Below are positions 21,437-23,064 of a stretch of 64,000 nt of DNA, one piece after another. The notes beneath the pieces are model-generated. The model had not been told where the DNA came from. It saw nothing but the letters and a program-made list of their open reading frames with translations, and ran no database searches. A program made the position numbers and the translations under genes. The DNA is from Betaproteobacteria bacterium. GTDB taxonomy: Bacteria > Pseudomonadota > Gammaproteobacteria > Burkholderiales > Rhodocyclaceae. The DNA lies in assembly GCA_009779265.1 (NCBI GenBank), contig WREP01000010.1:1-64000 (forward strand), in the 5' to 3' direction. Position 1 is the stretch's first letter; every line of letters begins with the position of its first letter.

Positions 21437-23064
21437 CTACACCTCCAGCGCGTAAGGCGTTTGCTTGAAGGTAATGCCCTCGCGCGCGGCGCGTGCGCCC
21501 ATGCGGTTGGCGGCGGCGTAAATCGTTTTCGGGCCGGCGAACTTCGGCAGCCCATCGAACACCGGGCGGGTCAGTACATTGCCGCCGCCCGCGGACTTGT
21601 CCTTGAGGATGCCGTTGTAAAGCAGGTAGATGGCGCGGCCTTCGTGCGCGCCAAGCAGCGGCGAATCCGCCGCGCCGGTGTAGCCGGCGCCGGTTTCAGC
21701 AAACCAGACAAATTCGGCCAGTTGGGCGAAGCTGACATCGCGGCGAATCTGGCCGTCGGCGTCGAACAGAGGTTCGGCGGACAGGCGGCAGAACTGGAAA
21801 CCGTTGCCGAGACCTGGCTGGCTGGCTGGCTGGCTGGCTGGCTGGCTGGCTGGCTGAATTCGGTTGTCATATTCAGGGCGACGCGGCGTACGCGCTCGGC
21901 GGTGACATTGCGGGCGATGTTTTCGTCTATCTCGACGAGGATGAAACGGCGGTTGCCGCCGTCCTCGGCGTTTTGTTTCAGCACGGCGTGGGCAGTGGTG
22001 CCGGAGCCTGCGAAGCTGTCAAGAATCAGTGAATCTGTGTCGCTGGCAATCTGAAGAATACGCTGGATAAGACGAGCTGGTTTGGGTGTCCCGAAAGAAC
22101 TCTCATGCAGTATGTCCAAAAGTTGACTGCGAGCTTCTTGTGTGTGCCCGCAATCTTCATATCTCCAAAAAGACCGCGGAACTACATTGCCCATTTCGCT
22201 CAAAAACCTTTTCAGCCGCGGCTGCTGTGCAGTTCCATCCTTTCCCCACCACAGGCATTTTTCTGCCAGGTGCCTTCGATACGTTTCTTCATTGAATTTC
22301 CAAACCGCTGTTTTCTTAGGCCAAACATCCTCACCTGTTGTCGGATGGCGAATTGGATAGTAAAGGTTGGGTCGTTCGTCACAGGATTTATTGCATGTGT
22401 AGGTGACGGAATTCCATGCGCCACGCAGGTCGGCATCTGGATTTTTGTAGTTGTCTAATTGCTCCTCTGTTCTGGGTAGGCGGTTCAATGCCCATTGTGA
22501 TGATCGCATTGCATAGATCACAATCGATTCTGTGTCGCTGCTAAAGAATTTCGCATCGTTTGCAGGGGAAACCCTTTTTATCCAACAAATAGTTGTTATG
22601 AAATTTCGTGCCCCAAAAATCTCATCCATCAACAACCGCAGCGTCGCCACCTCGTTGTCGTCGATGGAAACAAAAATCGCCCCATCCTCCCGTAAAAACT
22701 GCCTCAACAGCACCAGTCGCGGATACATCATGCACAGCCAGCGGTCGTGCCGGTCCAGCGTCTCGCCTTCCTTGCCCACCACTTCACCCAGCCACTTGCG
22801 GATTTCCGGGCTGTTGACGTTGTCGTTATAAACCCAGCCCTCGTTGCCGGTGTTGTAGGGCGGGTCGATGTAGATGCACTTCACCTTCCCGGCATAGCGC
22901 GGCAGCAGCGCCTTGAGCGCGTGCAGGTTGTCGCCCTGAACGATGAGATTGCCCGAATCCGCCGCGCCGCAGGAGAGTTCCGCCACCGGCTCCAGCAGGC
23001 GGAACGGCACTTCCTTGTGATGCTTGACAACGGCCTCCTTGCCGATCCAGTTCAGTGTTGGCAT
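21437..23064 (-). CDS. mod: type III DNA methyltransferase Mod, phase-variable and out of frame in this sequence
   Basis: A beta-class N6-adenine methyltransferase of a type III restriction system. The catalytic motif is IDPPYNTG (residues 66-73), the target-recognition region spans roughly 170-320, and the AdoMet motif LDSFAGSGTT lies near residue 350. After residue 402 the frame enters ten AGCC tetranucleotide repeats (SQPA peptide). In the sequenced register the frame then goes to nonsense and stops at 21571 (497 residues). The conserved C-terminus (LGNGFQFCRLSAEPLF ... FKQTPYALEV) is one frame away and stops at 21437. One more repeat would give 543 residues, two fewer 539. The Mod ATG is preceded by the small partner gene of the zeta-like ATPase. 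Confidence 0.92.
21814..21856. repeat. (CTGG)10 tetranucleotide tract inside mod
   Basis: Ten perfect CTGG units plus a partial CTG, equal to AGCC repeats on the coding strand. A tetranucleotide tract shifts the frame by one base for each unit gained or lost by slipped-strand mispairing. Any frame of the tract encodes Ser-Gln-Pro-Ala repeats. Confidence 0.97.

Follow-up and report, generated by a model that had tools for sequence, protein, structure and literature searches.

How is a type III DNA methyltransferase gene to be understood when a perfect run of four-base repeats separates its catalytic core from a conserved C-terminal domain (CTD) lying in another reading frame? This question is raised by the mod gene carried by a stretch of 64,000 nucleotides (the window, positions 1 to 64,000 of contig WREP01000010.1, assembly GCA_009779265.1) from a Betaproteobacteria bacterium, the genome of which is a draft of 75 contigs presenting one assembled length of the tract. 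A betaproteobacterial host had been surmised from the letters alone in the original prediction, and this agrees with a lysS-like protein displaying 82% and 81% identity to those of Betaproteobacteria bacterium UBA2592 and a Zoogloeaceae bacterium, respectively, the best of 24 chosen genomes. The best reading of the locus is phase variation, which we regard as probable when a switch of the whole system and a variant uncoupling restriction from modification are taken together, because the tract, the arrangement of the frames, the conserved CTD, the apparently intact res gene and a second case in another genome (G161) all speak for it.

The mod-res pair and its repeat tract

In its present reading, mod extends on the reverse strand over 21571..23064 (497 aa, ATG at 23064), as found in the list of open reading frames (ORFs) and by Pfam and PADLOC, and contains the Pfam N6_N4_Mtase domain together with a match to the PADLOC profile MTase_III PDLC03644 (1.5e-172) which covers only positions 1-397 of the 542 of the profile. 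The order of the motifs read from the ORF, DPPY before FxGxG, is that of a beta-class N6-adenine Mod. The adjacent res gene (18731..21433, reverse strand, 900 aa, with its ATG on the 21433 side) provides the helicase and nuclease parts of a type III system, recognized as ResIII by Pfam and as REase_III by PADLOC over residues 56-887, and the type III assignment made earlier is thus borne out by the pair. No endonuclease-domain family of Pfam matched the window's Res at 0.001, and a PD..ExK-like end was recognized by eye only. Among the 40 top matches to res, 22 loci show 80-88% identity over at least 895 of the 900 residues; the gene is intact to judge from its sequence, and no lesion other than the tract was seen in the mod-res locus.

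The tract occupies 21814..21856 on the reverse strand (CTGG on the forward strand, AGCC on the coding strand) and was reported by TRF as CTGG x10.8 with 100% matches, i.e., a perfect tract of 10.75 units and 43 nt. The ten units announced by the original prediction are therefore found inside mod and, as anticipated, at a late linker, which lies beyond the catalytic motifs, the exact start being codon 403 instead of residue 402. This is the longest period-4 run of the window, the longest one in 425 dinucleotide-preserving shuffles of the window measuring 17 nt, and it is not a chance run; its length is one prone to slippage. It is also the only AGCC run of at least six units in the window's own genome. 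Codons 1-402 correspond to the catalytic core, with DPPYNTG and FAGSGTT, and beyond them come the tract and an out-of-frame tail.

Once recomputed, the span from the ATG at 23064 through the last base of the TAG (21437) is 1628 nt, a multiple of three plus two as predicted, and the arithmetic built on it is correct: one additional unit would give 543 residues, and two units fewer 539. Past the tract, the three frames stop at 21571 (the present one, which confirms the predicted stop), 21696 and 21437, the last of these being the frame that carries the conserved CTD (21437..21808, reverse strand, 123 aa plus stop, from tblastn and pN/pS) and differing from the frame of the catalytic core. The AGCC repeats encode S-Q-P-A in every frame. 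A simple repeat with a unit not divisible by three accordingly lies inside the mod reading frame, as in phase-variable type III mod genes, but its location at codon 403, past DPPY and FxGxG, places it outside the class with a 5' tract (modA, NgoAX and modS type).

When the CTD piece, read in its own frame, is compared with the 15 nearest of 21 gapless relatives, pN/pS is 0.12-0.22, in line with the good preservation claimed beforehand, and its differences fall mostly at third positions; although out of frame, it is still under protein constraint. No Pfam family was found in this piece. The stop of the full-length frame is located three bases before the ATG of res, where a GGAGGT-like ribosome-binding sequence is visible by eye, and the stop of the present frame about 138 nt ahead of that ATG; this early stop may lower the translation of Res.

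Just upstream of mod occurs a Zeta-toxin-like P-loop ORF (23120-23858, Pfam Zeta_toxin, 1.1e-9), with a small overlapping ORF downstream of it, seen by eye, which may be its partner. Just downstream of res, a PIN-domain ORF and a VapB-like ORF form a VapBC-like pair (17985-18715), the VapB match of the latter being just under the Pfam cut-off, and a type I restriction HsdR-like ORF (31004-34063, HSDR_N, T1R_D3-like) lies about 8 kb from mod.

Relatives of mod and the distribution of AGCC tracts

Relatives were gathered in two sets, consisting of the best 80 of 569 confirmed stretches and of 60 relatives that yielded, in addition to the locus of the window, 12 others (with a strict cut-off, 11 of the 60 had a match, the own genome among them). 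Separate tblastn searches were made with an N piece comprising residues 1-401 and a C piece of 123 residues. Both pieces occur in 75 of the 80 loci of the first set and in three of the 12 of the second. In the comparison with relatives that the original prediction had called for, core and CTD share one frame in all 78 two-part loci (75 of them from the best 80 of 569 stretches), and none of these carries the tract; no repeat was found at the linker of any fetched relative when units of 1, 2, 4, 5, 7 and 8 bases were scanned with a threshold of 14 nt for the four-base ones. The linker stretch as cut measures 78 nt in most rows versus 104 nt in the window. Four loci (L009, L030, L052 and L079) possess an in-frame linker insert with a palindromic-repeat look by eye and a LTPGPSPASGRGEK-like peptide, so that the linker tolerates insertions and is an insertion hot spot.

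Various other irregularities were encountered among the relatives, namely a mod stop at residue 288 in L058 and at residue 7 in L065, a shortened CTD match in L008, a CTD match interrupted by some 390 inserted bases in L018, a duplicate of CTD residues 84-123 at 6275-6397 in L030, and loci running off the contig end (L042, L050, L053). The CTD piece found no match in L019, L036, L037, L048 and L050, nor in nine of the 12 loci of the second set. L065 also contains a GATC run of 3.75 units (15 nt), located inside the CTD-coding part and not at the linker. Ahead of the start of another related mod, by about 65 bases, 12 G occur in a row (L039:3925-3936), possibly as a promoter-type phase-variable tract. 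A second type III-like Mod is encoded in the same genome as the window's (G000:C3:13008-14111, pieces at 39% and 50% identity), and the scan of its locus (L002) reported no repeat tract.

No variant in tract length was found among the 60 relatives or the best 80 of 569 confirmed stretches, and within the genus the mod tract is confined to the own genome (one of 76). Two of 805 plasmid records gave matches in the 60-80% identity band, and no length variant occurs among the plasmid matches listed (15 of the 805 records, the best listed at 57% identity); the tract-plus-CTD pattern, searched with the AGCC unit only, gave 0 matches in viral contigs. Genome-wide scans were run for the AGCC unit only, other units being scanned in the fetched loci. 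Runs of at least six AGCC units were detected in one of 76 genomes of the genus, six of 399 of the order, four of 369 of the class and two of 398 of the phylum, which makes nine distinct genomes across these four overlapping samples (the window's, G161, G213, G816, G300, G400, G661, G855 and G133). In three of the nine the tract lies in a methylase gene, and in two at the late Mod linker. One locus, L107 (G213:C19), with 28 AGCC units close to the beginning of an ORF that contains an N6_Mtase domain, is a candidate for phase variation by a 5' tract, and further tracts comprise 26 units inside an ORF that looks ankyrin-like by eye (L144, G816), 40 units (L108, G300) and 17 units (L109, G400). 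None of the tracts of G300, G400, G661, G855 and G133 was assigned to a methylase. The genus of G161 (12 genomes) holds two further 5-unit AGCC runs, one in an unrelated ORF of G049 and the other outside any ORF of more than 60 residues in G453. A reversed control pattern, made of CCGA units, matched 22 times in G166, a genome of the same family as the window's, so that G166 carries a long CCGA tract.

The second gene with a tract at the same MTase/CTD linker belongs to G161, a genome of another family within the same order. Its mod contains 11.75 AGCC units (L188:3550-3596, G161:C33) directly past an RVRRV helix sequence, its CTD lies in a frame other than that of the catalytic core, and downstream occurs a res of 889 aa, intact in length, with the Pfam domains RE_endonuc and ResIII; no Pfam family was found in its CTD piece. 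The best PADLOC profile of this Mod is PDLC03634 and not PDLC03644, which assigns it to another subfamily, and its catalytic part, where aligned, shares 47% identity with that of the window's Mod. When the G161 pieces were compared to 28 loci, 16 matched the CTD piece, all 16 in the frame of the core, and no linker repeat was reported in the 28 save for a 9-nt AG run nearby in L163. For the G161 CTD, pN/pS is about 0.40 when compared with L161 and about 0.43 when compared with L162, synonymous sites being close to saturation; the alignment of L159 contains gaps, and this locus was left out of the whole-length calculation. By this measure, constraint on the G161 CTD appears weaker than on that of the window. 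Phase variation is supported by this second case as far as sequence comparison goes, and a second occurrence at the same linker suggests a repeated use of the position.

Possible roles of the tract

Slipped-strand mispairing in the AGCC tract, presumably occurring in the cells, would bring the Res-docking CTD in or out of frame with the core, the gain or loss of units reversibly adding or removing the C-terminal tail. By analogy with EcoP15I, the tail after the tract is thought to dock Res. In frame, Mod would be full-length, its SQPA-rich linker being longer, and would pair with Res, so that the cell would both modify and restrict; since S-Q-P-A is encoded in every frame, the in-frame tract would behave as a soluble flexible linker, whereas the out-of-frame tract would cut off the CTD. 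In the out-of-frame state, which is that of the present assembly, Mod would end in a junk tail, Res would presumably stay undocked and the system would be functionally off. A loss of restriction in this state is likely, because Res would be undocked and possibly less translated, and because Mod raises the amount of Res in EcoP1 and EcoP15, in which the res promoter is located inside mod (PMC3874151). Methylation would most likely be lost or much reduced too, because a truncated Mod that ends in about 90 foreign residues would probably be unstable, but this is less certain than the loss of restriction. In keeping with a switch, the tract starts past the final helix of the MTase domain in the predicted structure of the relative L014. 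A classical ON/OFF switching of the whole system by tract slippage stands, in our estimation, slightly above an even chance.

Since the tract falls between core and tail, the loss of Res docking offers a specific alternative to a plain ON/OFF methylase, in which the out-of-frame Mod would still be an active dimeric methylase and the switch would oppose restriction plus modification to modification alone. All catalytic motifs precede the tract, and some standalone beta-class methylases (1g60, 5hfj, 9c3u and 8urk) align only to model residues 395-396, just before it; in EcoP15I, moreover, one Mod contacts Res through its CTD, the CTD of the second Mod faces the solvent, and the dimer is formed through the N-terminal (NTD) and MTase domains (PMC4490356). 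Other beta-class methylases (CcrM, TTHA0409, PvuII and RsrI) align further, however, to residues 412-453, and the window's Mod, which starts at about residue 57 of EcoP15I, is devoid of the NTD used in dimerisation, so that its CTD may be of greater importance. Mod may also be destabilised by its junk tail, and the slippage-truncated modH and NgoAXII products are inactive in the available parts of the published work. Such an uncoupling seems unlikely on balance, with roughly one chance in five in its favour; if true, the chromosome would keep its marks and its protection throughout as the barrier to incoming DNA is raised and lowered, and the arrangement would have arisen at least twice, in two Mod subfamilies.

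Slippage is opposed by the single assembled length, by the lack of a tract in the relatives save G161 of the other subfamily and in the other genomes of the genus, by the weaker constraint on the G161 CTD, and by the out-of-frame state of both tract-bearing Mods, as decay would give. A young pseudogene, in which the tract arose in a tolerant linker and broke a mod now decaying without any switching, would account for these features, the more so as the linker already takes inserts in four relatives, but it is improbable given that mod and res show no other lesion, that the CTD retains its low pN/pS and that a Mod of another subfamily carries this tetramer at that very linker. Repeat counts are error-prone in a draft genome, and the gene could be in frame in the organism; a tract of 43 nt is nevertheless shorter than ordinary short reads, which makes a wrong count very unlikely, and even then the tract itself would be real and unusual. 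Programmed frameshifting at the tract would deliver both products from one sequence, a shift inside it being silent in the linker since the same S-Q-P-A peptide arises in all three frames, but we know of no classic slippery heptamer in the tract and the relatives need no frameshift, which leaves hardly any credit to this explanation. Phase variation by slippage accordingly remains the preferred reading.

Comparison with known phase-variable systems

In modA, the repeat tract lies near the 5' end of the gene. The window's mod resembles modA of Haemophilus influenzae and Neisseria (AGCC or AGTC tracts) and NgoAXII as a type III mod gene with an AGCC unit, but differs from the mod genes with a 5' tract, whose OFF state removes the catalytic core, in that its core precedes the tract. 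In NgoAXII of Neisseria gonorrhoeae, the length of the AGCC tract switches the type III mod, with 35 versus 37 units (PMC6789123), and changes in length of phase-variable modA and NgoAXII truncate Mod and abolish methylation (PMC5149525, PMC6789123); in the available parts of the cited work, phase-variable type III methylases are turned on or off as whole enzymes. A switch placed where core and Res-docking tail meet would allow the epigenetic marking and the defence of one and the same locus to be separated, and tested. It would also place phase-variable restriction-modification in uncultured betaproteobacteria, outside the usually studied host-adapted pathogens. A survey of repeats in the type III mod genes of REBASE reportedly exists, in which a late-linker tract may already be listed.

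The claim that known tracts usually sit nearer the 5' end holds for NgoAX (5' end) and modS (near the start), according to the available parts of the sources, but has to be amended for modH of Helicobacter pylori, whose poly-G tract lies 104 bp downstream of the recognition domain and whose OFF form is truncated and inactive (PMC5700931). A type III mod whose tract comes after the recognition domain, as in the window, is thus already known in modH; modH differs by its homopolymer, whose position probably puts it ahead of the AdoMet motif, still within the MTase domain, and not at the MTase/CTD linker. No title or abstract opening in the literature searched mentions a tract at this linker. The Mod2Res1 complex of EcoP15I differs from the window's Mod by its N-terminal dimerisation domain, and no repeat tract is reported in the part of its description that was available. 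In NgoAV, finally, a G tract truncates the type I HsdS subunit without inactivating it and the output is changed (PMC6789123). As in NgoAV, a tract truncating a restriction-modification subunit of the window could alter the output rather than abolish it, with the difference that HsdS is a type I specificity subunit, the changed output of which is the recognition sequence.
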